In this document: in pieces, positions 1 through 25,463 of the stretch
Layout: each line of letters begins with the position of its first letter
Position numbering within the stretch: position 1 is the stretch's first letter
Made by a program: the position numbers and the translations under genes
Notes under the pieces: generated by a model
Database searches by the model: none
Seen by the model: the letters and a program-made list of their open reading frames with translations, nothing else
Told to the model about the DNA's origin: nothing
Source: Paramacrobiotus metropolitanus
Taxonomy: Eukaryota > Tardigrada > Eutardigrada > Parachela > Macrobiotidae
DNA length: 64,000 nt
Assembly: GCF_019649055.1 (NCBI RefSeq)
Contig: NW_026570276.1
Span: 372,001-436,000 of the forward strand
Reading direction: 5' to 3'

Positions 1-31
1 GTTTAGCGTTCTTACCTAAAAGATTAGTGAA

Positions 32-222
32 TCATGCCTTTTCTGGAACTGCTGGTTGTTCGGAATCATCGCCAGGCCCAGGAACAGTTAATTTGGACAA
101 AGGCAGTACTGATACAATGCGCGTGAATGATTTAATACTGCTTCCGGAGTAAGCGTTGAACGAAAAAGTTCCTATAAAGCAATGTGCGCCGGTCCCGCGC
201 GCACATCGACAAACATTGCTAT
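32..222 (-). other. possible exon of the transposase-like gene or a neighbour
   Basis: An open minus-strand segment is preceded by a good acceptor (ttgcttgcag just above 222) and ends at a stop near 32. It encodes a short Cys-rich stretch starting SNVCRCARGTGAHC followed by a Ser/Thr/Pro-rich tail. The Cys spacing is loosely like a SWIM zinc cluster, which is often found in transposase-derived proteins. It lies downstream of the transposase-like exons on the same strand, so it could be a terminal exon of that gene, but I could not join it in phase. It may equally be chance. Confidence 0.2.
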
Positions 223-403
223 CTGCAAGCAAGGCGCGCAGTGCAACCTCGAAGTCTCTAATAGTTGAATATAGTCCAGGTGGGGACTTTATTTTTGCTT
301 AGATGTTAACCTGTTCCTTCCAATTGATATCAAAGTTATACCGCGGAGAACGTTTGCTCCTGTAGCTGAAGCAGCATGGGAGTTTTTATTTTTGTCACTT
401 GTA

Positions 404-776
404 TTAGCGAGTCAAGATGTTGAGGCCCATTCTACAAAACTTATCTGCAAAGTGTAGGTCTACGGTGCTCTCGCCAGTGGTAACCAACGTCGGACAATTT
501 TGAGACCGCTGATAACTGAAGGTCGCTTACGCCTGCTGCCCATTTGCTTGACGCGAAAAAATGTAAATAAATGAACTAGGTAGTTGACTCTGTGTGTTAC
601 TTTACATAACTTAAGTTTTTGTAGTATGTGAAAACATGGTATGATCTTGACAAAAACGGGCAGTAAAGCATAGTATAGCCAGTAAATAAAATTTTCTAGT
701 AAATTTCTGCATACGTCACAAGATTGTGCTGGCAGATAGCCCTTTTAAAACTGTCTATATGACAATGCATTGTTGT
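404..776 (-). other. candidate 3' exons of the transposase-like gene
   Basis: Two pieces downstream of the last secure exon (987-1209) look coding. At 776 a strong acceptor (acttttcag) opens a frame reading TTMHCHIDSFKRAICQHN, which resembles the segment that follows in KDZ-like proteins. However, it needs phase 0 while the previous donor leaves phase 2, so a microexon is missing or the gene has an indel. At 515 another acceptor does fit phase 2 and reads on to a TAA at 404-406, including TVDLHFADKFC. Only one of these may be used. The gene may also continue past the left edge of the window. Confidence 0.3.
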
Positions 777-986
777 CTGAAAAGTTTTTGAATTTAGTTG
801 TAGTGAAACGGAATGCCATTTGTCGTTAGTATCAGTCAGCCCGTTGGTGTCAGATTGATACTATTTCTGGGTTAACGATGTTACGATATCGTCTGGTAAA
901 TTTAACACGGTTCCGCGACTATATTACTCATGCCAGGCTTTTGGTGGTCAAGCTTTGTTTGTCGAGCAGCGGTTAAGTTTTTGTAC

Positions 987-3900
987 CTGTAAATTGGAGC
1001 AAAGCTATAGACGTGTCCCGTTGGTCCAACTAGAAATAAGTAGCCACGGCTATATAGGTGCCCTCGCTGATTTTGGCCCTTGTTCTTTCTGCAGCTGACT
1101 TGCGGATCAAATTTTCGGCAAGCAGTCTCCGGGGAAGCGTTATCCATTTCTCCACTTAGGAGGGCATTAATGTCCGACATTGCTTTAGATTTTAGCATAT
1201 TCGAGACCCCTGGAACGTATTCACCACTTGATTACAAAGAAGATTTTTGGTTAATTTGCCTAAAACGTACCTGCCATGTGAATGGTGATATGTTCACATT
1301 GTTCTTTTATGGCGGACTCCAGATGTTTATGTTTAACGCAGTGCAGACAGGTGCCGTCTGGTTCGTTTGTACATACATTCGGAAAGTTCAGCAATGGAAT
1401 ACTCTCCACAATATTCTGAAACAGTCCCAAGAAGATGTAATTGTACTTTACTGCCTCCTGAAGTTTTTTAAGTAAACGGGGTAGATGGTTAAGGTGTTTA
1501 AATAAAATAAATATTTGTTATCGTAGTAGCTGGTACTTCGCACCCACCAGAACCTCAGCGATGCAGTGTCTGAAACCAGCTTTCCATATTCCGTCCATGA
1601 TGATCACCCTTCCACACTGTCGCGCAATGCACGCAGGGGTGCATTTATGTCTGTACACGGTGGAAAATATCGCGTCCATTCTCTTGTGCAAGTACTGCAG
1701 AATACCCTTTTTCTCATCGAAGTTGAATAGCTGACTATCCTGTTCCCGAATGTCGCTTTCAATCTCGTGCCGCATGAAAGTGGCCGCCACTGTCTTCCGA
1801 GAGAAAACTGTAAATTTTAATTATCTGTGTTTAATTGGAAAGCATTTCCAAAACGAAACTGAAATAACCATACAAAATAGGAGAAACTCTGCCGACTAAG
1901 CCGTTGGTTACCGGTACTTAATTTCACCGAATATATTTCGTATACTGAACGCCCTCCCTTAACCAATGACTGGAGTTGACTTTAAAATGCCAAATGCATG
2001 AATCAGTAAAACACAGCAAGTAGTTAACTGCAAAAAATACCATACAGTAGACAGTGCCCAGTTGTACAAACACTAGTATTATTTACAAGTTTGATGTAAC
2101 GGAATTGTGAGCAGTTCTTCTTTCTACACCGCCTCCAGTCCATAGCTTAAATGTATCTCTTTATAAAGTTAAACCAGGCCAACATTTTAGCACCGGTGAA
2201 TGGCGTGGCCATTCAGGTGGCCAAGAGTGAAGGTTCAAGAAATTCGTTATTAAACAAGGTGCGCAAATCTGAATTTGCCATCCTTGAAGGTTCCAAAATT
2301 GCGCAGGGTAACGAACGAAATCGGATGCTTCGGCTTTCCTGAACAACAGATAATTCGATGACCGACACAACGGCGAACAGAGACGAAGTCTCCATCCCGA
2401 ATTCGACCTACTGTTTTCTATACCGTGTCGTTTTTCTAGGTTTCCTATTCTATCTGAAACTTTTTTTGCTGTCTCTGGTTCTTAAAATGTTATAGTGTGT
2501 TAGGTCGCTCTCATTGCGTCGATATCGTGCGGCCGTTTGATATTGTCACGCTGTCTGCTTGATGTGTGGAGCAGCCGCCCTCGGTGGCTGCTGGTATAGA
2601 TTTCATGCATTTCCTATGGAAATGCTCAGTTTATTGCATCCTTGTTCCCTTATTTCTGTATTTTTCCCTATTTGGGCAATAAACTCTTTTTTTGTGGGAG
2701 ACCCATGTTCTCTCACACCCAGATTTACCTGTATTTGGAAGGGGGTGTTAGACCTTCCTTCTGACAAATGGCGCTCCTGGCAAAAAAATGTACCAGTCTG
2801 ATGGAGACGTAGCCTGCCCTGTGGGGTCTTGGATGCCGACAGGGACCTCGTCAGTTCCCCATCAGATTTCCCCATACCCGTGGACGTATGGTGGCCAACC
2901 TATGGACGGAATTTATCCCAAAACCCATTACTACTCCGGACAAGAACACCCGATCCGGTTTGCACCATCTTATGCCTCCTGTGGATATAGCAGTGATCAC
3001 TCCGCTCTACGACATGAGCCTGCTGCTAATAATGGCTACAACAGCCACTCAAGCCCCGGACGTTCTTTCCAATCGAAGAAAAAGGTGTCAGACACCTTTG
3101 CTAACATTCCTGTCCAGACATTTTGGACTAGCGCGGCACTAGAGAGCGAAGAGGAATTCTGCAGCGTCTGCGATTCTGAGCACCCAGACAGTCGACTGCC
3201 AGCGAGCTACAGAATACTCGCTTCATCGCCAGCCAGCTACACAAGGGAGCAGCTGGAGCAGTTGCTGGACGAACTGCTGGAGGAAAACGAGATCTACCGA
3301 TCTGAAGCAGTTCGACTGGAGAAGGAACGCAACTACTACGAGGAGTTGGCTGAAGACAGGAGAGCAGCTCTGGAACGTCTGGAAACTCGGCGCGCACCAC
3401 GACGCCCCGTACAGCTGCACTGCGCAACGCAGACCGATACAGTGCGCTTTGCAGTTGAGCCATTCCCTGCCAAACGCACCTGTACAGTGATTCCCCATCG
3501 CGATGAGGGAATCATTCTGGACCGGAGCACCAGTGGCGATAGTAGCCCGACACTGCCACTTTCCTCTGTGACGGTGCTATCAAAAGCAGTGGAGGCCATC
3601 TTGCCCGTGACCGAGCCTGACCGGATCGACACTGCCGATCCCCTCGCACTCCCCCAGGACGCTGCCACAGCGCCTTGCTGTTTTGACAGCCCTCGCCACT
3701 GCGGAACAACTGAAAATAAAACGGCATTAGCTGCCATTGCGCCCGTTCGCCCGAAGAAGCGCGTCGCTGCCGGAGTCCGTCGCTGTACACCAGCCACAAA
3801 ACTAACGGCACACCGTGCCGTTCATCCTGCCCCAGTGCCAAAAAACGTCCAGCGGCAGTAACTCGAGGCATTACTGCTGCTTGCCGAAGTCGAAGCCCTC

Positions 3901-6679
3901 CGCTTAGCCGTACCTCCATACAGCGTAGGACGGCTGGACTGGATAATCGCCATTGGCACATGGCCGACGTAGCAGATGATCCTGCACCGTCGAGGGTGGT
4001 GAAGGACCCGGACAAGGCTGGCGATGTCCTGCGCAAGGTTACCAAGGGCTGAATCAGCCCTTCTACGCATCCTGCCTTCGCCGACATCACGCTGCCGGAC
4101 AAGCTGGAGTGCGCCATATGGCGAAAGAGTTTATTTGTTGGCCTGTTACTTTTTTCCTTTTCTTCTGTTTTTGTTGAAGTATTACCTTTGCTTTTTGTTA
4201 CGGGCTGGGGGCAGCCCTTTTCCGACGGAGGGGCATGTGTCACGCTGTCTGCTTGATGTGTGGAGCAGCCGCCCTCGGTGGCTGCTGGTATAGATTTCAT
4301 GCATTTCCTATGGAAATGCTCAGTTTATTGCATCCTTTTTCCCTTATTTCTGTATTTTTCCCTATTTGGGCAATAAACTCTTTTTTTGTGGGAGACCCAT
4401 GTTCTCTCACACCCAGATTTACCTGTATTTGGAAGGGGGTGTTAGACCTTCCTTCTGACAATATCGTCTTCTCGGTGTTAGTTAACATTATATCGGTAGG
4501 CGGAGAAACATCGACGGTACTTTTATCGTAACTTACACGAATCCCATTTGTACGTCTGCCGCATAGTTTCCGCAATTCCGTCGTATGTCGCGTGGTTAAA
4601 CAGTCTGCAAAAAAAACGTTAGAATTAGCGACTGTTGGTTTTTGTACAAGCTAAAATTACGCAAGAGTATTGTTGAAAGACCACATTCCGCATATTTGGT
4701 GCCTATTTATCAGGTGTTTTACTATTCAAAAATCAAGAACGTTCTCTAAAGAGTGCGCTTCCGTAAGGCGGCTCGGAAATTAGCACTGCAATCAGTATTA
4801 AAAACAGGATCTATGGTACGCGCGCCTGAGATCTCCATAACTGAAACATTTTTTCGAAAAATCGTCTGGAATCTGAGTCAGTTGATTTTCGTTTAAAATT
4901 CCTTCGACCAGAACCCTGCCGGCGCGATGCCGGAAACGATGACCGTCACGCATTAAATAATTTGTCTACATGCAGTACTTACCAAACGTAGTTAGCGCAC
5001 TAGTTAAGCCTTATAACAAATAAATCATACTTATTTTCGTGCAGCACCAAACAAAACTCGTCACAAGTTAACTTCTAGGCTTTTGTTGTCCGCACTTTCG
5101 TGCGCTATTTCAGGATTACAACGATACGGTGTATTACAAGTACGTAAGTTTATCGAAATGCTGGTTTTTTTATAAGACCAATCACCACACGTCCAGCACT
5201 CGCTAGAGCTGGATTTAGTAATGCAAGGCTTCGCAGTGGTTCACCCCAGTTTTAAACATCTCCTCGGAGCGAATACACAATGATGAACGTTTATTTTTGA
5301 AAAAAAACTCTTAATATTCATTCTCGTATTTCATTAAGCGTTGTGAACAGGCTAAACCTAGAATGCGTCTCAGTTTGTTGAGCACTAAATTAGCGCCGCT
5401 AACACGATCGAGCAAAGTTGACAAACAGATGCAATTCCGGGAAGAATATAAGGGGCTGGCAGCGTTTGCTCGTTGCCGCCGTCAGCCGGCTGGCGTTTCA
5501 CGTTGTGGCAAAACACGGTGCTTACATACCCCGCCAGATTTTACTATATGTACAGCCGCAACGTCATACTCCAGCCGGGTCACGACAGATACAAGACCTT
5601 CTTGCCCAAGCAATTGTCAGCTCCTTTTACATCCAAGTAACTGTTGCAGTGTTGAGAGAGCACTGAAGGAGTAAGTGACTAGCCGTAAGCTACCATCACT
5701 GCATAGTACTGAAGTATGAAAATTCGCTCGATTAGGAGTCAGCGATATCTGCGACCGCTGTGAAGTGTCCACTGTACTGTGAGCAAAATTGAGTTGTGAC
5801 CGAATTTCTAACCCTAGCTTTTTAGTGACACTAGAAGGCATTTTATAAGAACAGATTCGGAGTAAGACGGCTTCCCACTGCCTTGAATGCACTCACATCT
5901 GGTTCACGATCTCAAGTGCAAACTGCCGACAAACGAAGACCTTTTGCGAAACGTCCAGGTAAGGCTGACCGGTGCTGTAAAATGAGTAGGTCGAGGTTCG
6001 ATGATTGGTCCAGGAGCCACAGGAATACCGCGACTTGCATCCTCTGCACCTCAAAGTTACCACTAATGCGGGCTTGGTTTTTCCTGCTCCGCTGAAAATT
6101 GTTGCCTGAAAGCCAGAAAATTATATTCTCATTTATATAAAACTAAAATGTAAATCAAAAATAAAGAGTGGCAAGATACTTACTGTAGTCGGTTTGCGAT
6201 GCCAAGATAAAACTCGCAACATTCCCCTGTGTCGGCCAATTTTCCACCGACAGTTGTTTTGACAGTGTAAAACCGGAGGGCAAAGCACTTCCACTGGAGC
6301 GGTGTATGGCTGATCTTCAAAAAATGATGGCGCAAATCGTTGAAAGTCGCGTGCGAAGCTTTGTGTCTGAGAAGTCGAGAGGCTCATCATTTCGGCAATA
6401 ACCTGTGTCGAAATACAAGTCAAACAGTGACTTTAAATTACATAAATATCTGACTCGACAACTTTTCACGAAAGACAAAATTTAATAATGCTAAAACTCT
6501 GGCATCTGGGAACTAGATCCTATAGGCCTTAATACCTGCATCCGCTTCCCAGATGGCATTGTCTTTGGCACAAAAGCACAACACGCTTTAAATTGTTCCA
6601 GATTCCGAAAACCGTACTTGGTAACCAAATACCCGCATGCCTCGCGAGAATCCGCACTGAATTCCAGTGTGCTAGCCAT
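987..6679 (-). CDS. KDZ-like transposase-related protein, split gene (3' end unresolved)
   Basis: Seven minus-strand exons join in phase: 6679-6536, 6402-6184, 6105-5897, 4604-4537, 1807-1548, 1457-1271 and 1209-987, about 437 codons. All introns are GT-AG. Exon 3 has paired cysteines (CRGCKSRYSC). Exon 5 has C-x3-C then VIIMDGIWK with Asp285, followed 10 residues on by Cys. Exon 6 has VCTNEPDGTCLHC and a KHKH. Exon 7 has SRGYLFLVGPTGHVYSF. This order (Cys cluster, Asp-Gly-x-Trp-Lys, second Cys cluster, Gly-rich strand) is what I recall from KDZ (Kyakuja-Dileera-Zisupton) transposase-like animal proteins; I assign the family by motif, not by search. The start ATG at 6679 is provisional: an open segment beginning FEYFRNSLCADV behind an acceptor at 6770 suggests another 5' exon. 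Intron 4 carries an LTR element. The reading frame is clean over seven exons, which argues for recent function. The catalytic domain is incomplete in this window. Confidence 0.55.
2544..2766 (+). repeat. 5' long terminal repeat
   Basis: Left copy of the 223-bp LTR, TG...CA bounded. It contains a polyadenylation-type AATAAA (within GCAATAAACTC), which would serve the transcript in the right copy. Confidence 0.9.
2769..2783 (+). other. tRNA primer-binding-like site
   Basis: TGGCGCTCCTGGC starts two bases after the left LTR. LTR elements carry a sequence here that begins TGG and pairs with the CCA end of a tRNA. The tRNA was not identified. Confidence 0.55.
2788..3861 (+). CDS. gag-like structural protein of the LTR element
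   Basis: A 357-residue ORF fills most of the interior. The N-terminal 100 residues are rich in Pro, Tyr, Ser and Gly. A predicted coiled coil spans about residues 150-200, where EQLEQLLDELLEEN and following heptads are rich in Leu, Glu and Arg. The C-terminal half is Ala/Pro/Thr-rich and basic. There is no CCHC zinc knuckle, and no protease or polymerase motif. Position between LTRs and the coiled coil suggest a capsid-like self-assembling protein. I do not recognise the sequence family. A short in-frame ORF (3960-4052, 30 codons) follows before the purine tract; its role is unknown. Confidence 0.6.
   Translation: MYQSDGDVACPVGSWMPTGTSSVPHQISPYPWTYGGQPMDGIYPKTHYYSGQEHPIRFAPSYASCGYSSDHSALRHEPAANNGYNSHSSPGRSFQSKKKVSDTFANIPVQTFWTSAALESEEEFCSVCDSEHPDSRLPASYRILASSPASYTREQLEQLLDELLEENEIYRSEAVRLEKERNYYEELAEDRRAALERLETRRAPRRPVQLHCATQTDTVRFAVEPFPAKRTCTVIPHRDEGIILDRSTSGDSSPTLPLSSVTVLSKAVEAILPVTEPDRIDTADPLALPQDAATAPCCFDSPRHCGTTENKTALAAIAPVRPKKRVAAGVRRCTPATKLTAHRAVHPAPVPKNVQRQ
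4224..4233 (+). other. polypurine tract
   Basis: GACGGAGGGG lies four bases before the right LTR. This is the usual place of the primer for plus-strand DNA synthesis. Confidence 0.55.
4238..4460 (+). repeat. 3' long terminal repeat
   Basis: Right copy of the 223-bp LTR, one visible mismatch to the left copy. The ATAT target duplication follows at 4461. Confidence 0.9.
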
Positions 6680-7508
6680 GACGGCAATGAAAACTCAAGA
6701 GTTGAAACTTCCTTCACTTCTGTTATGTCTGCCACATCAGCGCACAAACTGTTACGGAAGTACTCAAACCTACAAGATCAATATAGAAACAATTTTCAAT
6801 GTGTGTTGCTGAGATTACAAATGGAAAAGCCTTGCCGAACACAACGAAATTCGGAGAGAATTCTGGAAGAGTACTGGTACACGCGCGTAGTATACGAGTA
6901 CTGGCGAATTTCAAAAGTTAAAAGGTTTCTACGAGCAGCCTTCATATTACCGGCACCAAGGCAGCAACCAGAACGAAAATTTGGGCGGCTCTATAACTTT
7001 CAGCGTGTTCTGACCTCACTATTATACCCAGTTGCATTTTGCACCAGTTGCGGCAGAGAAGAGCGTATAGCCAAACCCACCCGCTTTGGCAAATATCCAT
7101 TACAGTATGTGCAGTGCTTAGCAAATGAAGGGTGCTACCAAGCCGGCCAATAGAACGGCTTGTTTGACCGTAAAAATTTCATTGACACAATTCTCTCACG
7201 CGCGCGTTTACGTCTCGGTTCAAAGAGCAGAAATTTGTTTTACAACCTGAAATTTTTTTTCGAAGATATTTGCAAATTGCTACTGATTTGTTACAACAAA
7301 TTAAAATTTACAAAAAAGCACGCCCTTTTTAAAAAAATCCTCTGGTCTGAAGTTCTCAGTATGTGTTGAACATACTCTCAAAATAATGGATTCATCGGTA
7401 ATTGCTGCTTTTTCATTCGCCGTCACGCTTCTGTTTAATTGATTTTTGATGGTTTCTCTGGGTTATTTGCATTGGATTACAGAATTTATTATATATAATT
7501 TGCTCTAG
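6680..7508. promoter_or_regulatory. spacer between two divergent genes, probable bidirectional promoter
   Basis: The space separates the minus-strand transposase-like gene (start near 6679, possibly 6770) from the plus-strand ATPase gene (start 7509). It should hold both promoters. I see no clear TATA box or known element. A 186-codon plus ORF overlapping it (6593-7153) looks like noise, because part lies antisense to exon 1. Confidence 0.35.
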
Positions 7509-10500
7509 ATGAATTGCGACTACTCCTTCAGTGTGGAGAATGGAAAAACATTTAAAGTAGCCGTTCCTCGAACGGACGACCCGGGCAAGAGAAAGGTGTT
7601 AAGTTGTGCAATAACCATTAAAGCGATAGTCCTTGGAGATGACTCCGACGCTGACGGCGGTTACGTCATTGAAGTTGACTGCGAAGATTTCGGAAAATTG
7701 TAAATATGTCCAGGTTTTTCGTTGACCCTGTTATACGGCTTCGAGATTTCTACGTGCTGCAATTGTTTTACGGTTTGTTTCAGTGACGGATTCTTACCCA
7801 GCACGGCGTGGCACTCAGCTGAAAACTTCCGAAACTCCCTTAAAAAGAGCTGCAAAGGATTGCCTGCTATTTTTTGCAAACTTAGCCAAACCGACTTGCA
7901 GGACTATGGAGAATCTCTGACCTCCGACTTCATCAGGTGAGATAAGGGCTACATACTTGTGCTTAGGGCGCAATCCTAAGCGACGTTCTACCGCCGCGGT
8001 TGTACAATGATTGCAGCGTTCAGTACCATGTTTCTGGCACTATCTGCTAGCCGTTAGCACCATAACTACAACAACTTTTGTTAGGTTCTGTAAATATAAA
8101 AATGTGTTGTTTCAGGAAGGCCAAAGAAAATGACGAACCTGTGTACCGAAAAAGAGTCACCCGTCACGGTCGCCAGGCTGATCAAGATGTAGTCGTTTTT
8201 GGTGAGGAAACCGCATTCCGTTTACTCCCCGACGGTTTTTGGAAGAGAGTTAAGGTTTGCGAAACTGAATACATTTGGATCCCCGGCGCCATCCCCGAAT
8301 TATCAATTCCGGAATCATTTCCAGCGGACTTCGATGCATTCAAATTCATCGCTTCCTTTTTGCCGAAGAAAGCGCTTTTCGGGTTCATCCTTGCTTTAGG
8401 TATGACAAATTACATAAGAATCCACATTTTTTATAAAAAATGGTCAGCGCAATCGTGTGAACTTTTCTTTTGTTCATGCCTCAGTGTGCTCTTACCACAG
8501 CGAACTAACGTATCCGCCCTTCAGCAGACGTGCCATTGCATGCTCGACATGATGGCGCCGGCAATTTTAAGGAGTAAGCAAACAAAGTGCCGGATTTCAA
8601 AACAGCGCTATGTTAACATTGTACTAGCAGTTTCCAGGGCGGAATGACCTTTCACTAGCGGTGGACAAAGAACGGCTGCGCCTGAATGTGTTTGAATACG
8701 AGCTGCGCTTTGCTGCTAGTTGGCAGTCTTCTGACGCTGCACACTGCTGGTACAATGTAAACAAACGGCTGCTGCGAATTTCTAACTATGACACCACATT
8801 ATCCAAGTCGCGTTGTCTTTACTAATAGGTTAACATTGGTAGAATGCGAACTGATATACCTCCGTTATGCTTCCCGACAATTGTTGACAGATATTTTTCG
8901 TTGATTGACGCTCTTTGTTGATTGAAAAACTAAGATCGTAAATTCGGTTTTGTAGAAGACCGCTGCAACATTTTTAGCACAAACTGCTTTAATCAAAAGG
9001 CGATCGATTTCTCAAACTAGGAAGTTTGAGACCGCAAAAACCGAGTTTTTTATTTTTTTTTTTAAACTCATTTTAATGCTGTAAACGGCACCCAAGGTGC
9101 ACCAGGACCACCATATTATAGGATATAGCCATTGGTACCCGTTTTTTAATCCGTTTCACTGTAAAGAGTTCTTTTCGTTTGGTTAATGCTTGCATCTCAG
9201 TTTTTTTGTCTGCCTATGAGGCTATGACTTCATTTAACGACGCAATCTTTCTCGCAGTTAATGTTTATATAAAGAATTATTGGCAATAATCGCGGAGTTT
9301 CCGCAAAAAAATCGGTAATATGTACTCTACCGGAAGACTGTCATTTTAAGTACTCGCACAAGCAAAATAATGTTGTTACGGGTTGCTACGGTTGGCGGCC
9401 ACTGAGAATATTTTTAATGGCTGCGCTGACCGACGAACGGACTCCACGAGTTACATGGGTGTGAGTATCTATGCATATGGTGGCGGTGACCGACAAATGG
9501 ACATCGCCTTTTACTTTAGCGCTGAACATAAAGGACCTTCGCTACGCTTCGGTCGATTAGCGGTCGGTTTCTCAACTTTGTTAATGTTCTCACTTCTCAG
9601 AGGTTTCTTTGGTTCAGCCGTTTAGAAGCTGCTTGGGGTTATAATCTGGGCAGTGTTCTTCTTAGTTTTCTTAGGTTTTTGTAGATTAGTGATACCTTGT
9701 CTTTAGTTTTTACGTTGTCTCACAATTTTTAATGAACATTTCATAGAATTTTTTGTCATAGAATTATCGTCAGCACTCTGTCTGTGTTAAGTAAACTATG
9801 TTAATTTATACGTCGGTTAACTGTTATTCTAATAAAGCCGTCAGCCTAGCCGTCAGCAGAATGTCAAAAACCATCGCTAGTTGCGATAATCGTTATCCTG
9901 CAGACTTGCATCAAATTTTAAAGCGCGCAGCGACTACGGTAGTATGCTCACATTGGGTTATCACTGAGCATACAAATTAACAAAATATTGATAAATCTTG
10001 CAAACACAGTCCGGAGTTACATTCGAATATTTTAACAGTTTATCTGATAAAATATGATTAGGCGATCAAACGCCCTGATGTCAGTACAGCTTGTGGCTAA
10101 TACGGAACAATAAAGCAACAAAAATAAGTATTCTAACCTAAGTAACGTTACAACTACCAACGTCGTTTTCATTCTTGATTTCAATGACAGTTCTTTTTAA
10201 AAATGAGAGCGTAAAATGTCAGACCTTCTAGTACTATGCGATATACAATAACTTTAACAGCGCTACTTCACAATAACTTTATGCAGTGCTAAATAATAAT
10301 AATAATTTGTAAAAAATCTAAGAACTCATAAGACAATAGCATCTAGAGCCTTTTTGAAAAGCTTCTGCGAGCTAACTCATCACAGACTAACACTGTCCTA
10401 TACACCTAGTGCCTCGTTAACCTTTATCATGAAAATAGCATTTAAGTTTCCACATGTTGCTTTTTTAGGAGCCGCTTACGGCGGGTTCCATTACGACGTC

Positions 10501-13500
10501 ACGGTGGAAAACTTCCTCAGGATGCCAGCGGTACTTTTGTATGGGGAAACAAACTGCGGAAAATCTTTTACTGCTAGCATGGTTTTGGAAATGTTCGCAA
10601 CGGGAGCTTCAAAATTGTATGATTTGAAAACGATAACGCTGGCCGGACTGCGGGAACTGATCACCAGTCAAGCATTACCTGTGGTTATCCACGACCCTGC
10701 CAGCCCAGAAATTGTGAAAATGGCCGTGGAAGATACATACGAAAAAAAAGCTTTAGCAAACTACAAAGAACGACGCTGTCCACGAACGTCAGCTATAGTA
10801 ACTCTAAACGCTGATGCGCTGAGTGACTTCCGTAATTTCGATAAGTAAGTACGAGTCAATACTTGGTTTCCATTTACCTTCCAGCTAGACGATATCTATC
10901 TTGTAGCCTACGGGGAATGTCTCGTTGCGTGGTGATCCCGTTCCTTGAAGAAATTCCAGAAAGAGATGCCGAGTCCCGCGTTCGTGCTAAAGGGCTTTTC
11001 CGCTTCGTTTCTCAGTACGCAGTTAAACTGCTACAGTGCGGTGACACGGATATTGCTGCCGTCGTTAAATATCACAAGTCGATCTATGATGAGGTGTTAG
11101 AAAAACTGCAAGATTATGGCCTGGAACAGTCAAGGCAAAGGATTGCGTTCAACATTGCACTGGTTTATGCCTATGGATGCAAAGTAAGACTATGAAATCT
11201 TAATGTTTCTAAACCTATGAGACCGACCTTTTAGTTTGCCCAGAGCGCAAGCTGACACGTTTGGAACAAAATAAGTACAGTACACATCCTCTGACCTATT
11301 AGCTGCATTAGCCGTATCTAATTTGCTGAGGCGGAAGCCAAATCCTTATCGTGCGGATAATAACGGCGTGAGAGTGCCGATGCTGTTCGCATGTGGATAT
11401 TCTACGCTTACATTGGGAAGAAGTTACGGGGGTGTGAACTACAGTCGGCGCAAATATCCGAACGCAACCAGTAACTAAAACCAAATTCTGAGCAGACGCT
11501 AATCAATGATCCAGCGTCCGCCGTAAAAAAATCGAAAAGTCGCCACCAAACCGAGAAGAAGCCGCACTCGCAAACTTAAGTTGAACTTATTCTAATCGGG
11601 CAATCATCTGTTTCGACCGCATCGTAGCCGCACTATTTTATGTCACGCTTACATTGAATCGTTTGTCCAACTTTTTGGCTTTTGTCGACCGGAGCGAAGC
11701 GAAGTTCCTCTATGTTCAAGAGAACCGGAATTTTGTCGGTCACGTCGGTCATGTCGGTCAGGGTTCAATAAATTTAAATGAAATATGGTAGAACACACCA
11801 AAAAACGTTATAATATTAAAAATATTTTTGTATAAAAAAAAATTCATGTTTAAACAGTTTTAGAACAAACTCAGCCAACAGTTTATAAAACTTGGTTTCC
11901 CCCTTCGCTCCGGTCTTTTAGTGCAAGCCAACAGAGGTGCACTTTCCTAGTATAATGCTCCTTTCAGGACTTTTCAGCAGATAGGTTTTGAATATTTTTA
12001 AAGCTTTTTTTGCTTTAGTTTCTTTGGTTTTTCGGTTGTTGCAGTCAAAGCTTGTAAGTTGATGGCAGAAGTTTAATTTTATTAGCGGTTAGTTAGGGCC
12101 GACTGGGCAGAACTGGCGTGCATCAGATATTGTCATAGCGTCTGAAGTGCTATAAAACCAAAGCTATAACATCAGCTAAAGACTTTCGAAAGAAATACAA
12201 TTTATAGAGGTCCCATTTATCTAAAACCTGAAACTAAAAGTCACCGTAGGCTGGGATTTCAGTGTAATGAATTTTATAACTCTCTCAACAACCACATTCA
12301 CTTAGAGCTTGCGTATGCATGCCCGCTACTGATAGGTGATTTGGCAGTTAAACGAGATAGGCTGGGTGTCGCAGCGCAGTTTCCAGCTTTGTGCATACTT
12401 TAAGCTCTTGGTACGAGAAATGAATTCGAATCGTTATTTCCAGAAACGCTTGTAATCGTAGTATATAATTTATACCACGTTGCGTAATGGTAAAATTTTT
12501 AAGCAACTGCCGGTACATACTTTACTTGACTACTGTAGTTTTTAGTACTGTTTGTGCATCGTGTAGGTTTTGGAAGTGGTGGACCCCGCTGGATGTGTGG
12601 ATCTAGCCGAATTTCGCGCTTTTGTGCTACGGGTAGTTACCAAGGAGGCTGCTAAATGGCAATCAAAGCCAGAAACCAAAGCCAGACATGTCCAACCACG
12701 AACGCCCCTTTCGCCGGATACCAAACAGCAACATGTTTCGTCCGCACTCGCTACCATCAACGCAGTCATTGAAGAAGCTCTGAAAACCTGCGACGAAGAA
12801 ACGGTGCGTTCTATATAATAGCGTGCTCTGCATCGAAAGGTGTAACCAGCTGTAATTCGTTTAAACATAATTAAGTAACGCCTTAAATGCAAAGCTCCTA
12901 ACAATGACGAACAAACCACTGCAGACGTGGCACGCGATACTAGGGACTGAACTCACTAAAACTAGCAAAGTAGCATTCCGGAGCAATTATCTGAAAGATT
13001 ATGTTTGGATATCCATTATCCAGCCATTGATTGAAAAGTCATTATCGCTTCAACTGCAGTCATGTTAGTATGCCAGCTAAGTGTCGCTTTTTGAAATAAC
13101 ACAAAATCAATTTACCAACATATTATTTCTAAGTTTCATACGATTATTACGGTTATTTCTGATTTTCATACGGTCGATACTGCGTGCACAAGAAACACGG
13201 GCGTTGGCTGCGTGCACGAGTGCTTGAAAGGGATTTCGCTGGCTGCGTGTACTAGGATTGCAAACGGGTTTTTGCTGTTGGCGCGGCAATCTTTGTTTAA
13301 GCGTCAAAACTTTTGGTAAAATTTTGTTTAAAGTCGGTTTTTGGATTCCAATATGACAGCGGGAACGAATCGCGTAATTGATAATCCATTGAAATAAGAT
13401 CAGGGTATCCTTGGTTGTGATGCCTTAACAACGTTAAAGTGCAGGAAATTCGCAGCAAAAGCTTTGAAAATAAAAAGTCCTCAAATAAAATTTCCCGGAT

Positions 13501-16500
13501 GTTTTCGATTCGGCATATATTTTAGCTGCAAGCGAAAACAGAGTTGTACTTTCACTTGTAAGAAATAAGAATAACCATGAAACACAAACAAAATATTTTT
13601 GCTTTTAGGTGCGGAACAATGTTAAGTTTATCCCAGGAAGGTCAAACACTGGACTTTCCTTGGCATTCAAACAAGATGGAATCGAAAGTTATTTGAGAGC
13701 CAAAGGCAAAGATGTTAATTTCTTACAACCGTACGTGCGGACGTTACGCTTGGTTCCACACTCTGATACTTCGCGAGACGTAAGGCTTGGTGGTCGGTCG
13801 CTGAAGGCATCCGCGGTTCCTGCGGAGATTATTTCCGAAACTGTTAAATCACTGCTGAAGAAAATTGGTAAGCGTTGAAAGCTGCAATCATACCATTGTG
13901 ACTCAACACCCTGTGCAATGCACATATTCTCTGTGCAATGGTCATACGAACATACATACGTGTACATACATACGTGCAATGTGCAGTGTACATACGAACA
14001 TTTTGTCATATGAAATTTACGTATACGAGTAATATTCCGGCTCTAGTTTTTAATTAACAAGCTGCTGATACTGCTTCGCTAAAACTAATTATTCAAAAGC
14101 ACATGTTTTTCGGTTTTGCAGGGATTACAGAAGGAAGCACTTCTGTTCCGTCTGATGCAAAGGAAACGCTTGCATCCATCTCTGAACCCCAGTTATCCGT
14201 CTCGGCTGATACGATTAGCGAGGACAGGTCTGAAGGCGCACAAAGTACCACTCCGGCGCCGTGACCGTTCCACCTGCTGACGGTTCTGGTAAATCGGTAA
14301 CAGAAGCACCTGATGGTTCGAAGTCTCAGGTAGACGAAGGCAAGTATTTTTTCGCGTTGCTTGTTATATCTATACTGCCCTTCTAATCGAAAAACCATTG
14401 TTTTTAGAGCGCGAGAGCAGCGCGGCAGGAAAATCGTCAGCCGATACCGCTAGTACTAGTTCGCAGTTGCCCACTTCTCAGGTTTCTTATGCCGTTCCAA
14501 TTTCGGATCAACTGCCCTCGCCGCCCCGTGCTGCGGTTTCTCAAGGCATGAAGTCACAAATAAATATTTTTGAAAACCTTAACTTTTGTTAATTTGTCAC
14601 TGTATAGTCCATATTAGTAATATGGCTACAGAATTTTCAGCACGGTAATGTTGTAATAGTTTCTACGGCTTTTTTGATAGATCTGGCAAATGTTGGTGGG
14701 CTGGACGCTGCCACAAAAAAACGAGCAAAGCGAAAGCGTACAGGAGAATCAAAAGGTAACCTTTAAAACTGCTAAGTTGATTTTATTTTCATGATAGTTA
14801 CCAACCGGCAGCATATATTTTAAAAGGTTTCATTGCTGTTAAACCAGCAACAATGATAACTGATGACAAACATGTTCCCTTTTTATGTGTGTTCCTTCGA
14901 AATTTTCAGGTGTGTTAGCTATAACGCGCGGAAAGAAGCCGAAAATTGAAGTGACGTCAAAGGGACAGGAAATGTTGGTACGTGTTCTGTATGTTCGAAA
15001 AATGTTTAGGGAACGGAAATGACAAGTCTTTCATAACCAAATATTTGAAACAGACAAACGGTTTCAGTATCAACAAACGGTAACAACGGTTTTAATATCA
15101 ACGTCGCAGTAATTTGATTCCTCGTTTTTGGCTCATTTTACGTATATCATTCCATATTTTGCTCGCCCGTTAGTAGCGGCAGACCCAGTCGACTTTTAGA
15201 CGCGTTCTGTCTGTCCATTTATCCAACTTAATGTACAAAAATCTCATTAGCAGACTTTCGCCAGTGGACTTGAGCCGGTGGCAAAATTAATAGCTTGCGT
15301 TTGCTGTCCACCGGTAAAATAGTACTCTTACAGTTGGGTTCCTTCTGACCGCAGACAGCGTGCATTGTTAACCCTTGAGTAAACAATGCTTCCTTGAAAA
15401 TTCAATGTGACTGTGGACACTTATTACCTCCAAGCGCCTCGCATACAGGTTCAGTGTGCGTGTTAATTTTGCCACCGTCATAAAAGTCGATCACCGGACT
15501 TGCTTTCTATTTGCTTTTCCCCACTCTAAAGTCTTTACTTATTAAAACCAAAATAATACTGTAGAAATCACAGAAAATCGAAACTTCTGAAATCCGTGTA
15601 CAGGGACGACCGGTTCTTGTGCAGTCTACCGGACCAGTTCCCGTTGATTCTTCTGTTTGCTTAGGAAGATTTAGTGTTGTTTATGCGTCACGAGTTGATA
15701 AGCCAAGTTTATTATGAAAAGGAATAATTTTTGTAAGCTTCATTCCGTTATGACACGGTGAGCTAAATATACTTAAAAAAATGAGAAAAATCAAAGTATT
15801 CACTGAATGCTGCTCGTAATTTATCCGTGCAGACGGTGCAGTTTACCGTAATTATCGAAATAAAGGGACCCCCGCATTACATGCTCCCCCGTTATTAGAA
15901 CCCACCCTTCCGGTCATTTGAAAGTTATAAAAACCCCTCAAACAGACGCCCATGGCCTTAACTACGTGAGATGCTCAAGTAGCCCAGCATGAACAGCCAA
16001 GCATGAAATGTGTCGACATCTCGGGCAGCAAATGGCATTTGAATGGGTTTGAGACTTTTTGTTTATTTAGTCCCCTTTTTGTTTTTTTGTTCAGGGAAAA
16101 TTCGTTTTGTTTTTGCGTTACAACATCTCAAATTTTCACTGAAAAGTAATCGTTTCGTTTTATAATCGTTTCGTGATCGCTTTCCTGAAAAGTGTGAGCT
16201 AGAAGCACGAAAAAAATTTTTTGAGAAAAATAGAATTATCTACTGAGTTCTGCTCGCGAGAGTGGCGGGCATTATGATTAGTATTAGGGAAGAATGTGAA
16301 GCGAAGAACCAGATCTGTGACGGATGCAGAATGGCGGAAAGACTATGATACGCTACCAGCGATTGTTTAGTAACTTTTGATGATCAACAATAGGCATTAA
16401 TCGTTAAGAAACCACCTATAAATAAATGAAAGTGCTAACTTTACACCGAGTTAACTTTACACCGAGTCGCGTATCTGCAAAGTCTTCCCCACCGACGCTT

Positions 16501-16959
16501 TTGCAATAGCTCAGTCGCGAGAGCTGATTTACAACGTCCCGTTTTCTGCGGTCATCCTTACAAAAACCTTGCGGCGCAATACGGATTCATGGACGCGAGA
16601 AAACTTGCTGTCTAACCGTATGATCCCGTAGGTATTGCTTGTTGAATGATGTGTTAGGGGTATCTTAATCGCATTTCAAAATCAGTAACTAATTTAAACC
16701 GGAGCAGAATGCTGCAGCAGCATTTATCAACAGCATGAAATTTGTCGTAATCTCAAGTAAGGAAGGTGCATTTGAGAGGTCTTAAAACAGTTTTTTTTAG
16801 TGTTCCTTGTGCGCGTGCGATATTGATTTGGACGCTCCAGGAGTAGGATGCATGGTTTGCAAGCTATGGTATCATCTGAAGTGCCAAGGAATAAAACGAC
16901 AACTGTCAAGAAAAGCGGAAATTTCTTACAAGTGCTCTGCCTGCAAGGGAGACACCTGA
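7509..16959 (+). CDS. P-loop ATPase with C-terminal PHD finger (13 exons, 791 aa)
   Basis: Exons: 7509-7699, 7784-7936, 8116-8399, 10469-10844, 10907-11183, 12567-12803, 13609-13867, 14122-14244, 14304-14339, 14408-14545, 14681-14755, 14910-14977 and 16801-16959. Every junction keeps phase, total 792 codons. Walker A is GETNCGKS (235-242). A hydrophobic strand ending Asp285 (VVIHDP) fits Walker B. A sensor-like strand ends TLN323, and SR341 may be an arginine finger. This layout resembles DUF927/superfamily-3-helicase-like ATPases. Residues 593-692 are Ser/Thr/Pro-rich. KKRAKRKR (704-711) is a nuclear signal. Residues 740-791 form a full PHD finger: C740, C743, C756, C759, H764, C767, C784, C787. 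I infer a nuclear, chromatin-bound ATPase. It is divergent to the transposase-like gene. The last junction (1.8-kb intron) is the weakest; without it the protein would end at TGA 15020-15022. Confidence 0.7.
8400..10468. other. large intron 3 of the ATPase gene
   Basis: A 2.07-kb GT-AG intron joins ...LALG to AAYGGFHY in phase 1. It contains a poly-T run near 9050 and no convincing coding sequence. An ATG at 10354 in frame with the next exon lies inside the intron and is not a start. Confidence 0.6.
11184..12566. other. intron 5 of the ATPase gene
   Basis: A 1.38-kb non-coding stretch. It includes GTCGACCGGAGCGAAGCGAAG at 11682-11702, found inverted at about 26890-26911, and short GTCGGTCA direct repeats near 11740. 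No gene seen. Confidence 0.5.
14978..16800. other. intron before the PHD exon
   Basis: A 1.8-kb stretch without convincing coding sequence. It contains a small inverted repeat (15276-15477). If the intron is not spliced, the upstream exon would run 14 codons further to a stop at 15020. Confidence 0.45.
15276..15477. repeat. short inverted repeat, possible MITE remnant
   Basis: CGGTGGCAAAATTAA (15276-15290) is repeated in reverse complement at 15463-15477, with weaker matches outside. No target duplication found. Confidence 0.35.
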
Positions 16960-17400
16960 GATGCAGAAGCCGTCAGAAGCAGAAAGATTGAAATGTTTCT
17001 TTTTCAGTACAGCGTTTACATTCGCTTCTGTTGAGCTTATCAGATCGAAACGAATCCGAAAACGGCTTTGCAGCGTTTGCTTATCGAGTTTTTATGCTGA
17101 TTTTTGTTGGTTTTTCGAAATGCTATATCTTATACAGCGAATGACGCATATTCTTTAACATTTTTGCATTTTGGAATTTTGGTAAAGATGCCTTATACTT
17201 TTGTAACAATGATAAGAGAATATGGTGCAGTCCAGTTGTCTGAAATTTCTACGAACATCTTTTACTTATATCTGAGAAAAAGCGAAATTTATAAATCATT
17301 GCTGTCCTCAACACATGCGGTTCTCTGAATTTGGACCTCCTCAGATCAGAATCAAGTGCACTTCCCAACTTTAAGTCAAACGCATCCTGGCAACGCAGCC
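16960..17400. other. intergenic, no feature seen
   Basis: AT-rich sequence between the PHD exon and the satellite array. Short ORFs only. Confidence 0.4.
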
Positions 17401-18527
17401 GTGCAGATGCATCGCGGCTATATACAGGCGTCGCGGCCATCGCGGCGTCCCGGTAGGCATGCTGCCATGTCGTATCTGCAGTATCGCGGTATGTCGCGGT
17501 TATATACAGGCGTCGCGGCCTTCGCGGCGTCGCGGCAGGTATGCCCACCTAGCATATGCAGTGTCGCGGTGCGTCGCGGTTATATACAGGCGTCGCGCAC
17601 ATCGCGGCGTCGCGGTATGCATTCTGGCATGCCGTATCTGCAGTGTCGCGGTATGTCGCGGTTATATACAGGCATCGCGGCCATCGCGGCGTTGCGGTAG
17701 GCATGCTGCCATGCCGTATCTGCAGTGTCGCGGTATGTCGCGGTTATATACACGCGGCAGGTATGCCCACCTACGGCATATGCAGTGTCGCAGTGCGTCG
17801 CGGTTATATACAGGCGTCGCGGCCATCGCGGCGTCGCGGTAGGCATTCTGGCATGCCGTATCTGCAGTGTCGCGGTTATATACAGGCATCGCGGCCATCG
17901 CGGCGTTGCGGTAGGCATGCTGCCATGCCGTATCTGCAGTGTCGCGGTTATATACAGGCGTCGCGGCCTTCGCGGCGTCGCGGCAGGTATGCCCACCTAC
18001 GGCATATGCAGTGTCGCGGTGCGTCGCGGTTATATACATGCGTCGCGGCCATCGCGGCGTCGCGGCAGGTATGCCCACCTACGGCATATGCAGTGTCGCG
18101 GTGCGTCGCGGTTATATACAGGCGTCGCGGCCATCGCGGCGTCGCGGTAGGCATGCTGCCATGCCGTATCTGCAGTGTCGCGGTGCGTCGCGGTTATATA
18201 CAGGCGTCGCGGCTATCGCGGCGTCGCGGTATTCTGCCATGCCGTATCTGCAGTGTCGCGGTATGTCGCGGTTATATACAGGCGTCGCGGCCATCGCGGC
18301 GTCGCGGCAGGTATGCCCACATACGGCATATGCAGTGTCGCGGTGCGTCGCGGTTATATACAGGCGTCGCGGCTATCGCGGCGTCGCGGTATGCATTCTG
18401 CCATGCCGTATCTGCAGTGTCGCGGTATGTCGCGGTTATATACAGGCATCACGGCCATTGCGGCGTCGCGGCAGGTATGCTCACCTACGACATACGCAGC
18501 GTCGCGGTGCATCGCGGCTATGCCGGG
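17401..18527. repeat. 82-bp GC-rich satellite array, about 13.5 units
   Basis: The marker TATATACAGG recurs at 17419, 17501, 17581, 17663, 17805, 17877, 17949, 18113, 18195, 18273, 18355 and 18437 (variants at 17745 and 18031). Spacing is mostly 82 bp, with shortened units of 60, 72 and 72. Each unit is built from many TCGCGG hexamers. Two subtypes interleave: one with GCATGCTGCCATGCCGTATC, one with GTATGCCCACCTACGGC. The array is far richer in GC and CpG than its flanks. Because the unit length is not a multiple of three and has few stops, long ORFs appear in several frames; I do not treat them as genes. Confidence 0.95.
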
Positions 18528-19487
18528 TGTTAGATTGGTCCGCGACGAGACAGTGACAGTGGCGTATAAGTTTGGTACAGATTGAGCCACTTCTGTAGAA
18601 TAACTTCGTGGCGGTCTCCCACGTGAAAGCAAGCTTAAAGAATTCGGGCAGAGTAGCACCGTTAGCGGAAGACGGCAAACGACGCAAAATTGCTTTTCTA
18701 GAAGAGAATGGGCGTTTCCAAATTACTTTTTACCGACTCACAGTCGAGACGCTTTGGCACACTGGGAATGACCACCGCCAAAACGATGCGTTTTAAGGGA
18801 AGTAAAATTGGCGACACAAGCGGGAAGCCTTAAACTGCAGCCTTCCCGAGACAACGCATAATTCGTTAAAATACCGTAGATTCGGCCGTTCGAAGATAAC
18901 TGGATACGCGACTAAAGGTGCTAAATTTTTGAAACACCTAAGATTTTGGCTTTTGTTTAGCTGGCTTTTCAAAGTTCACAGCATTTTAATGGTAATAAAA
19001 GGGCATACTTTTTGTTATATGAAGTTAATATTACCGAATAAACATCATGAAGTAGACTTTGATTGATACCGGGGAAATAAGCCTTAACACGGATCAGAAA
19101 AACAATTGCACGTACTGTGTTGAACGCTAGGCCAATTCTCTTATAACATCACCGCTAAAACTTTCTTTGCTACAACTATTATTAAAGCGCACATGTCCAG
19201 TGCAACGGTGCAGCTCATACACCTGTAATGTCTTGATGGACAGCTTACGATACTGCCACATCCGTTTCGCGTTGCAGCATGGCAAGGTCGGCGAACGCTC
19301 GACCATGTACTGCCGCCGGTTATAGTATGAAACTCAGTATGGGTTACGTAGTTTACAGTGACGATTATAAGCTTTAAAGGCGCTGATTAAATTTCTTTGC
19401 TGTGTTGTTTTTTTATGGCCGCTAAACATATCTCTTAAACAAAAGCATAGTCCAATCGAAAATTCTCCATATCGCGTTGATGAAACC
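18528..19487. other. intergenic, upstream of the lipocalin gene
   Basis: No convincing gene. It should contain the promoter of the lipocalin gene; no element recognised. Confidence 0.4.
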
Positions 19488-23585: not shown

Positions 23586-24620
23586 TTAGCTCCTATTAAG
23601 GGTGCTGTTTCGTTCAACATCTACAGTGTTAGAGCGGGCTGTAAGGTTCTCAAGCGAAATATCCGCATTCTGGGAACTCCTTGTGCCCGGCGCGACAGGC
23701 ATGGCTATGATGAAGAACACAATCGGATCACTTATGGCGGAAAAATAAAAAATAATGGAAAATATCATGTTTCCCAGTGCTGTTCGCGTAAAGAACCACG
23801 AATAGAACACAGAGGGCATCCAGGTTACAAGAACGATCAAGGCCATCAGGGAAAACAGCAAAAACTTGCGTGATCGTCTTTCTCTGCGCATCATTATAGT
23901 GCGCCTGGTTTGTGAGGTAGAATGGTCAATTACGATAGCAGGAATAACTGAAACATTCTTTTCCGAACGGCGCTTTCTCCACAGAACATACGGGCACGAC
24001 GCCACAATCAGCCAGGGTAGCGGCATCGCGGAATAGTTGGCCAACTTGACATACAGCGGTAATTGACGCAATACCAGGGCCCGACTATCTTCACAAGAGC
24101 CGGCATCGCGGTAACCGGACAGCGCGATGACCACCCCCGGTATCCGCATTATAGCGTAGACAGCGGCGCAGACCAGACAAATCATGACAGCGGCTCGACG
24201 GTTGTGATGGCGCCGGTACGCGATGGGCCAAGTGACGGCCCAAATGCGATTCAAGGCGATGAGCACGTGGCCAGCCGTTGCCACAACTTGTACAACCCAC
24301 TCTTGTGCCGTTTTCAGGGCGCACAAGGAGAGCGTGCCAGCGGGATCACGGCCAGCGGCCGCAAGACCTCTGCTTGGGAGCATCATAATCATGGAAATAG
24401 ACTGCAGGAACAGCAGCTGTATGATGTAAATGTTGAACGGTGTGCGTAGTGCCGGATGATACAAATAGTATCCCAACACCAAAAAGGAGAGGATAAAGGC
24501 AATCATGTTCTGAAATAGTAGAATAACTGCAATTATTGTATCGAAATTAGATGGACTCCAGAAAACTGACGGCGGCAGCAATGCCGAACCGTTATTATCC
24601 AAAGTATGGTTAACAGGCAT
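23586..24620 (-). CDS. rhodopsin-type GPCR, family 1 (single exon)
   Basis: One uninterrupted ORF of about 344 residues. I chose the ATG at 24620 (MPVNHT) rather than the upstream ATG at 24689, because the paralogue at 27.5 kb aligns from the same point (MTANHT). Hydrophobic segments fit seven membrane helices. N-terminal NHT is a likely glycosylation site. The TM3 end motif is LNRIWAVTWP, so Asn replaces the acidic residue of D/E-R-Y. TM7 has SDPIVFF in place of NPxxY. The third loop and tail are basic (RRERRSRK). The family is a divergent class A receptor, probably chemosensory or peptide-sensing; ligand unknown. Tandem paralogue of the gene at 27531. Confidence 0.88.
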   Translation of the reverse strand: MPVNHTLDNNGSALLPPSVFWSPSNFDTIIAVILLFQNMIAFILSFLVLGYYLYHPALRTPFNIYIIQLLFLQSISMIMMLPSRGLAAAGRDPAGTLSLCALKTAQEWVVQVVATAGHVLIALNRIWAVTWPIAYRRHHNRRAAVMICLVCAAVYAIMRIPGVVIALSGYRDAGSCEDSRALVLRQLPLYVKLANYSAMPLPWLIVASCPYVLWRKRRSEKNVSVIPAIVIDHSTSQTRRTIMMRRERRSRKFLLFSLMALIVLVTWMPSVFYSWFFTRTALGNMIFSIIFYFSAISDPIVFFIIAMPVAPGTRSSQNADISLENLTARSNTVDVERNSTLNRS

Positions 24621-25463
24621 CTTTCCTAGAACTGGATTATAAAACTTGTTTACAGCTGCATGAAGCATTCGAACGGCATTGAGCTGCACGGTTTAGCGGC
24701 CGTGCTTTCTTGATGCAATATACTTGGGCAGTCGGGCATAATTTTATTGCACCATCCGGTTGCGTATCTATAGCGTGACTGCTTGAAGAATGCCGGATCA
24801 GTAATATTCCGTCCCTTGGGTCACTAATCAATACTTTCTATATATCGAGCACTACTGTGGCGCAAAAATTATCTTGAACATACGGGATTTTGCGGTCACT
24901 TTACGTAAACAGCAACTGAGGTCTGAGACAAAGAATCTACGGGTAAACGACGGCTATTTCAAGCGGATTACCGGGAGCCGGATCAACAATTGCTGGGAAT
25001 TACAAAGAAAATGAGATAATTCCCGTGTGCGCACATGAGCAGTCGCTAATACCGCTTCTGATAAGCTCTAATTGTTTGGTTTATCACAGTGTCCCCAGCG
25101 TTGCATTGTGATTAACTAGTACAAAGAACATATCGTCACTCGTAGAACCATTGCACTTGGATGGATACAGGTTTCTGGATTCAGGTTTCTGGACGTTGCA
25201 TTATCAAGCGCTTGAAACCACTGTACGCAATATGCTGTTGAGAAGCAGTTTTAACTGGTTCAACCCCATTAAAAGCAGAAATAAACCGAAAAACTTAAAA
25301 GTGAGTATCGCAATTTGCGATTTTAGTAGGTACGCCAATGGTTGCCTCCTGGGCATGGCAGTGTGACGTCGTTTCGCTGCAAAGTTTTTGCAGATATTTA
25401 ACTTTTTAAATTCGTTTTACCAAATGAAAAGCGGAGCCATAATAGAGCATGCACCTTGTACGA
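24621..25463. other. intergenic, upstream of GPCR at 23.6 kb
   Basis: No gene seen. It should carry the promoter of the minus-strand receptor. Confidence 0.4.

Follow-up and report, generated by a model that had tools for sequence, protein, structure and literature searches.

A probable two-gene KDZ transposon combining a transposase gene with a divergent P-loop ATPase gene in the tardigrade Paramacrobiotus metropolitanus

Eukaryotic cut-and-paste transposons are usually seen as one-enzyme systems. In bacteria, TnsB of Tn7-type elements is paired with TnsC, and TniA of Tn5053 with TniB. Among eukaryotes, elements of the Kyakuja-Dileera-Zisupton (KDZ) group reportedly carry an HMG-domain protein as an extra gene. 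TET/JBP genes have been described as extra genes of KDZ elements and the Zisupton target duplication is given as 8 bp (PMC12730594), while KDZ1 of C. neoformans is an element of about 11 kb with 8-bp duplications (PMC12810828). Here we analyze a 64,000-nucleotide stretch of the Paramacrobiotus metropolitanus genome (contig NW_026570276.1, positions 372,001 to 436,000, forward strand; hereafter the window), in which a transposase gene (T) and an ATPase gene (A) point away from each other. The evidence presented below makes it probable that these genes constitute a two-gene KDZ DNA transposon, with A acting as a transposition partner of one kind or another. The accessible text of the literature searched (including PMC11071193, PMC10045372 and PMC9926710) describes no ATPase partner for a KDZ element, and the word ATPase is absent from the main text of PMC9297572, PMC12062965, PMC12730594 and PMC12810828; the founding KDZ/Zisupton papers, the text of PMC5718144 (the single paper in which the terms transposase, ATPase and KDZ occurred jointly) and Repbase, which may hold a two-protein KDZ entry, lay outside this search.

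The association of T and A extends well beyond the window. Searches of the genome, in which the best candidates were scored and the resulting counts are lower bounds, returned 35 matches for the T exon containing the DGxWK motif and 69 for the T catalytic exon, together with 30 and 31 matches for exon 4 of A with two different queries, 16 for exon 5 and 16 for exon 7 (the query included in all cases). Clustering of these matches outlined 54 T clusters and 42 A clusters. A was located within 12 kb of 24 of the 54 T clusters, against 0.32 expected with A clusters scattered evenly, and the arrangement was divergent in all 24 cases, the matched T and A exons lying 0.8 to 8.6 kb apart. Leaving out the matches to exons 5 and 7 yields 22 paired T clusters and 36 A clusters instead of 24 and 42, and some T clusters consist of single short matches (e.g. 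C17, C132 and C8, where C-numbers label contigs or copies in the host genome). The original prediction, made from the window sequence alone, had let the pairing stand or fall on whether homologues of both genes are ever neighbours elsewhere; within this genome, they repeatedly are. Identity between branches is about 23-30% for A and 30-43% for T in the tested exons, yet the genes are still paired.

Several loci depart from the simple pair. An extra same-strand A fragment lies nearer to T than the divergent A in C56, C92 and C7 (at 2.30 Mb), and C9 (865 kb) presents an additional same-strand A farther from T. The C9:864816-891426 region contains two inverted element copies with nearly identical A exons (dS, the synonymous distance, 0.012), forming a palindromic pair. 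In C65, an exon-3-like open reading frame (ORF), a degenerate P-loop ORF, a helical ORF, a PHD finger with a stop codon after it, and T with its KDZ domain lie in tandem on one strand, the exon-3 and helical likenesses being judged by eye. The degenerate P-loop (GDTRCFKS) was first recognized by eye, and a profile search of 15 kb then picked it up at 16.1 bits (E 1.9e-4); a P-loop finder located no standard Walker A in C65, and profiles of A exons 1, 2, 3, 5, 6 and 7 yielded no convincing match at this locus. The tandem layout suggests that the partners stay together even in this configuration, with a weak ATPase call.

The T-A pair moves as one element. Four copies (C58, C138, C137 and C130) are 94-99.6% identical in aligned pieces and have different flanks. 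These elements, which form the young C58 family, range from 9.2 to 10.9 kb, with C138 longer through a 1.2-kb insertion, end in GAGAGTTTAACCCGTTTAGGGTAA and CATAGATTAACCCGTTTAGGGTAA, and are all four bounded by exact 8-bp duplications (ACAACATG, ACGAAATC, AAATTATT and ACTTGGCG). A fifth copy, C53, is a 6.4-kb deletion derivative that apparently lacks the 5' parts of both genes; it presents an 8-bp duplication (TCAGATTG) and matches at 23 of 30 terminal bases. Terminal repeats and 8-bp duplications were hence observed in five of the six copies with both ends examined, the exception being the window copy; the C50 and C4 stretches stop short of the right end and do not enter this count. All four C58-family duplications start with A, a possible target preference, and a duplication of 7 bp next to a fixed A would give the same pattern.

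The window copy is an element of about 24.6 kb, spanning approximately C56:365946-390595 (window -6054 to 18595). A GGCTCAATCGGTACCAAACTT-like terminal motif occurs at both of its ends in inverted orientation, just outside the subterminal arrays, and its outermost bases were set by analogy with the C53 ends. It also contains a second A fragment, 51% identical, at C56:367935. Inverted repeats with an 8-bp duplication had been anticipated left of position 1 and right of position 16960. Both features are borne out in the five copies above, and the window element does have recognizable ends, set off from position 1 by about 6 kb on the left and from 16960 by about 1.6 kb on the right, away from the proposed places.

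The T gene runs leftward on the minus strand from about position 6664, which its conserved 5' part reaches, and the A start codon lies at 7509, placing the two starts approximately 0.8-1.1 kb apart, in agreement with the original estimate of 0.8 kb. The Cys clusters and Asp-Gly-x-Trp-Lys signature that had pointed to a transposase are likewise confirmed on this strand, the latter as MDGIWK. The gene does not end at position 404, as had been proposed, since its catalytic exon falls outside the window (Table 1). MDGIWK, CYDNICQL and AAEQTFAWL are kept in the aligned T copies; they may provide the catalytic Asp-Asp-Glu of an RNase H fold, with the Asp of MDGIWK presumed, by motif, to be the first catalytic Asp. 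The C58 catalytic exon passes the Pfam KDZ model (PF18758) narrowly, with 26.7 bits for a cut-off of 26.6, and another C58 exon, the counterpart of the CxC5-like exon of the window, narrowly passes the CxC5 model (PF18718; 27.0 for a cut-off of 26.9), a result that pertains to C58. The catalytic exon of the window copy scores 17.8 bits, under the KDZ cut-off, and a direct genome search with PF18758 placed three loci (C65, C129 and C515) over the cut-off among seven candidates scored. By these narrow scores, the predicted membership of T in the KDZ group, which the original prediction had suggested checking by profile, holds for the family. A separate observation concerns C150, where the KDZ catalytic exon is broken by an insertion of about 1.1 kb with inverted ends beginning CGAGGGTTACTCGGAAAGTAA, which appears mariner-like by eye.

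The A gene lies on the plus strand and comprises twelve exon blocks from the ATG at 7509 to a PHD finger and a stop codon near 16958. Its structure was derived by comparison with copies C121, C7a, C150 and C92. Exons 1-7 have GT/AG borders that these copies share wherever their stretches extend over them, and the borders of exons 8-12 are approximate; the C121 and C7a stretches end before the last exons. The product had been described as a P-loop ATPase with a nuclear signal and a PHD finger, and all three components were recovered: a GETNCGKS Walker A, a signal-like KKRAKRKR stretch and a last exon matching PF00628 at 24.3 bits, narrowly over the cut-off of 24.0. Gly, Lys, Pro, His, Asp, Pro and Asn residues of the P-loop domain are invariant in 13 aligned A exons, showing a conserved ATP site. 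The PF00628 model is also passed by C7b (31.4 bits) and C65 (32.7 bits), and a C4HC3-type finger was identified 3' of A on the same strand in the window, C150, C92, C7b, C50, C4 and C58, in a survey that left out C121, C7a, C138, C137 and C130. A Trp before Tyr/Phe/Ile-His, which we take to be an aromatic-cage residue, is present in the window, C150, C92 and C65. No Kelch match was detected in the six window A stretches (outside exons 1, 2 and 8-11) and four C58 A stretches scanned.

Beyond its P-loop, A matches no family, and it is best described as a predicted P-loop ATPase of unsettled class. Its best match among PDB sequences is midasin, with an E-value of 2e-5 that stems from summed repeats, the best single match having an E-value of 4.1. 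An assignment to the TnsC/TniB/MuB group of AAA+ regulators was considered and rejected: TniB is matched by five of 23 members with a best E-value of 0.014, the window exon scoring 13.0 bits for a cut-off of 22.4, and the likeness to MuB (hhalign, 46.6%) is confined to the Walker A region. A search for relatives of the ATPase among viral contigs produced 41 pattern matches, none of them confirmed, and a search among phages returned nothing convincing (best E-value 1).

Both genes appear to have evolved under constraint and in concert. Ratios of nonsynonymous to synonymous change (dN/dS; Nei-Gojobori) were calculated, without a neutral control, for five window-clade copies in all ten pairwise combinations. 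A exon 4 gives values of 0.02-0.08, and the T exon at 1544..1811 gives 0.12-0.24; synonymous change is saturated in most of the deeper pairs, and three further T pairs with a value give 0.08-0.09. These ratios indicate that the one exon tested in each gene is under purifying selection, in line with the selection that the original prediction had read from clean frames, although exon 8 of A is frameshifted in the window copy. T and A protein distances are correlated over 13 paired copies (r = 0.98), over the nine non-redundant copies that remain without C138, C137, C130 and C4 (0.98) and within the seven closest (0.95).

A working model can be formulated for such an element. T would be a CxC zinc-cluster transposase of the DDE/RNase H type, responsible for cutting and joining at the terminal repeats and for the 8-bp duplications, and A a nuclear P-loop ATPase bearing a C-terminal PHD-type finger in most of the branches examined. 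The back-to-back layout would allow a single region of about 1 kb to drive both genes. A could assemble on DNA or on T and serve as a nucleotide-dependent switch that governs activation or the engagement of a target; this role as a nucleotide-controlled factor is proposed by analogy with MuB and TnsC. The zinc finger of A might in turn tether the complex to chromatin, by analogy with RAG2, the Kelch-PHD partner of a Transib transposase (PMC4411706). We infer that A works with T, and likewise that the two proteins touch, that ATP is hydrolysed, that a target is chosen and that histones are read. A bolder version would see here a Mu/Tn7-like eukaryotic machine aimed at chromatin, in which the ATPase selects the target and its PHD finger places insertions at marked nucleosomes (H3K4 methylation in the aromatic-cage branch), providing an independent parallel to RAG1/RAG2 with an added ATP switch. 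We put this version forward tentatively, as a possibility that is more doubtful than likely.

Several observations weigh against the reading of a two-gene KDZ transposon with A as a partner. No A was found within 12 kb of 30 of the 54 T clusters, nor in the 4 kb upstream of T in C129, implying either that A is dispensable for the existence of KDZ elements in this genome or that such clusters have decayed, and 18 of the 42 A clusters belong to no divergent pair. The 24 pairs are not independent events, as some are recent copies of one another; an A exon is 99-100% identical among C58, C138, C137, C130 and C103, and C50 and C4 are at 98%. The direct PF18758 genome search recovered neither the window nor C58. 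On the side of A, no family exceeded its cut-off in the Pfam, NCBIfam, PHROGs and PDB-sequence searches, where most of the likeness was to the Walker A, and the second Walker A glycine is replaced by Trp in C58, C41, C110 and C74. The finger of C58 falls below the PF00628 cut-off (21.8 for 24), that of C50 gave no PHD match in the profile scan, a search of the deletion derivative C53 did not reveal the C4HC3-type pattern, and the presumed cage Trp is absent in C7b, C58 and C50. To these points must be added the missing neutral control for the dN/dS values and the window copy, whose two ends showed no 8-bp target duplication, marking it as an old or rearranged insertion.

Among the alternatives, the one that fares best holds that A is passenger cargo, aiding persistence of the element (for instance by countering chromatin silencing) instead of taking part in transposition, as TET/JBP may do. 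Fungal KDZ elements carry TET/JBP genes that are thought to aid escape from methylation (PMC12730594), and both the chromatin-type finger of A and the many T clusters with no A found nearby are compatible with such a role. The linkage is deep, however, the pairing being kept at the low identities noted above, and A is more constrained than T in the single exon tested of each, which fits a core function better; we consider cargo unlikely. The second alternative casts A as an SF3/D5-like replication helicase of viral or plasmid type that would help to copy the element, with movement coupled to replication. This is a sub-case of the transposition-partner reading, while cargo falls outside it. The Walker A reads GPRNTGKS in C420 and C4 and GPRNAGKS in C50, five of 13 A exons weakly match a phage primase family (best E-value 0.0019), and hhalign aligns A with phage P4 alpha (30.9%). 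This alignment is nonetheless restricted to the Walker A region, and SF3 and DUF927 models are absent from both the single-exon profile scans (window and C58) and the list of 18 Pfam families obtained for 23 A members at E-values up to 10, from which HMMER filters drop most weak matches. The DUF927/SF3 assignment, for which the original prediction had proposed a profile search, is accordingly rejected, no match covering the ATPase domain, and a replicative helicase of this kind seems distinctly improbable.

The original prediction had also left room for a domesticated, transposon-derived host gene pair. Purifying selection and the small number of copies per subfamily would be in keeping with domestication, but the 24 divergent pairs lie at different places, the four near-identical copies have differing flanks and 8-bp duplications, and, of the five copies compared along A, three carry lesions. 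Domestication is not needed to account for these data and, as a general explanation, is contradicted for the family by its mobile copies and rejected as very improbable, leaving the two-gene transposon as the part of that proposal that stands. Chance adjacency is rejected as a negligible prospect on the 24 pairs found, all divergent, for 0.32 expected.

The coordinates of the two genes and of the window element are compiled in Table 1.

Table 1. Features of the T-A element in window coordinates (negative positions lie left of the window)
Feature	Position	Strand	Basis or remark
T 5' conserved part	6227..6664	-	conserved in C150/C92; first exon approximate
T zinc-cluster exon, CxC5-like	5968..6105	-	third-position-biased change relative to C92; aligned in relatives
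T exon (HATYDGIAETMRQTYKWDSCKL)	4529..4610	-	ORF; conserved in C150/C92
T exon, C-x-C cluster and MDGIWK	1544..1811	-	35 genome matches including itself
T exon (IPLLNFPNVCT...)	1266..1420	-	aligned in related copies
T exon (SRGYLFLVGPTGHVYSFAPIYR)	983..1203	-	aligned in related copies; catalytic exon next, outside window
T catalytic exon	-989 to -558 (C56:371011-371442)	-	found by C58 exon, 48% identity
A exon 1	7509..7699	+	ATG in 4/5 copies, GT donor in 5/5
A exon 2	7784..7936	+	comparison with related copies
A exon 3	8116..8399	+	comparison with related copies
A exon 4: Walker A GETNCGKS, PVVIHD, TLNAD	10469..10844	+	30 genome matches including itself
A exon 5, ATPase continued	10907..11183	+	16 genome matches; related copies
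A exon 6	12567..12803	+	comparison with related copies
A exon 7	13609..13867	+	16 genome matches; related copies
A exon 8, with a frame break in the window copy and an approximate 3' border	14122..14343	+	frameshift relative to related copies
A exon 9 (approximate borders)	14407..14560	+	comparison with related copies
A exon with basic nuclear-signal-like KKRAKRKR	14681..14756	+	comparison with related copies
A exon	14911..14977	+	conserved in C150, C92; outside C121/C7a stretches
A last exon, with PHD finger and stop codon	16801..16960 (start approximate)	+	PF00628 24.3 bits; conserved in C150, C92
Element part within window	1..18595	.	inverted subterminal arrays and terminal motifs on both sides
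Right subterminal tandem array, unit of about 82 bp	17412..18521 (start about 17408-17412)	+	inverted counterpart at about -5999 to -4773
Right terminal inverted repeat	18560..18595	-	terminal motif match
Nested long terminal repeat (LTR) element in T gene	2544..4461	+	pair of 224-bp direct repeats with 99.6% identity; ATAT on each outer side

The LTR element nested in T is a recent and probably non-autonomous insertion. It measures 1.9 kb and contains one 369-aa ORF at 2752-3861, which can be called gag-like by position only and for which no family exceeded its cut-off in the profile scan; no polymerase gene was noticed in the element. Beside the T 3' end, at window -3249 to -1882, lies the remnant of a RING and SNF2-type helicase gene that also occurs in C92 and C150, of the large subfamily, and which perhaps represents a captured host gene. 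Its Helicase_C score (19.9 bits for a cut-off of 23.5) and those of RING models are below their cut-offs, a related match maps to C25:518128, and the C92, C150 and C25 matches contain stops. Elsewhere in the window, a MULE/ZSWIM-type transposase gene was detected at 56749-57730 (MULE, 34.0 bits for a cut-off of 27.6; ZSWIM1-3 RNaseH-like, 57.8 for 27.2), as well as a cluster of rhodopsin-type seven-transmembrane receptor genes at 23589-24692 and 27534-28619, with similar ORFs at about 32-34, 37-39, 50-51 and 60-61 kb. The ORF at 23589-24692 scores 42 bits with 7tm_1, and the other receptor ORFs were assigned by eye.

Compared with described systems, the P. metropolitanus element shares with KDZ transposons the transposase family (PF18758), the CxC zinc cluster, the terminal inverted repeats, the 8-bp duplications and a similar size, and differs from them in adding a back-to-back ATPase-PHD gene. 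Like Mu (MuA/MuB), Tn7 (TnsB/TnsC) and Tn5053 (TniA/TniB), it places a DDE transposase beside a dedicated P-loop ATPase; those systems, in contrast, are bacterial and devoid of a PHD finger, and A falls short of the TniB cut-off and resembles MuB over the Walker A region only. The Zisupton elements of Pristionchus pacificus are likewise animal KDZ elements, multi-exonic and with cores of 8-9 kb bearing terminal repeats, but the available text of PMC9297572 describes two transposase gene families, mentions no partner gene and reports that target duplications were not detected. RAG1/RAG2 and TransibSU constitute a further parallel, as animal DDE transposons combining a transposase with a separate PHD-bearing partner, the Kelch-PHD protein RAG2L (PMC4411706). 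They differ in that their transposase belongs to Transib instead of KDZ, in that RAG2 is a propeller protein for which the accessible portion of PMC4411706 describes no P-loop, and in generating 5-bp instead of 8-bp duplications. If A does assist T, the element would join RAG1/RAG2 as a second example of a transposase that has a PHD protein for a partner. The linkage of T to its own ATPase, kept across deep branches, would offer a natural test of whether ATP-switched target control also arose in eukaryotes, with the PHD finger directly predicting where insertions should fall.

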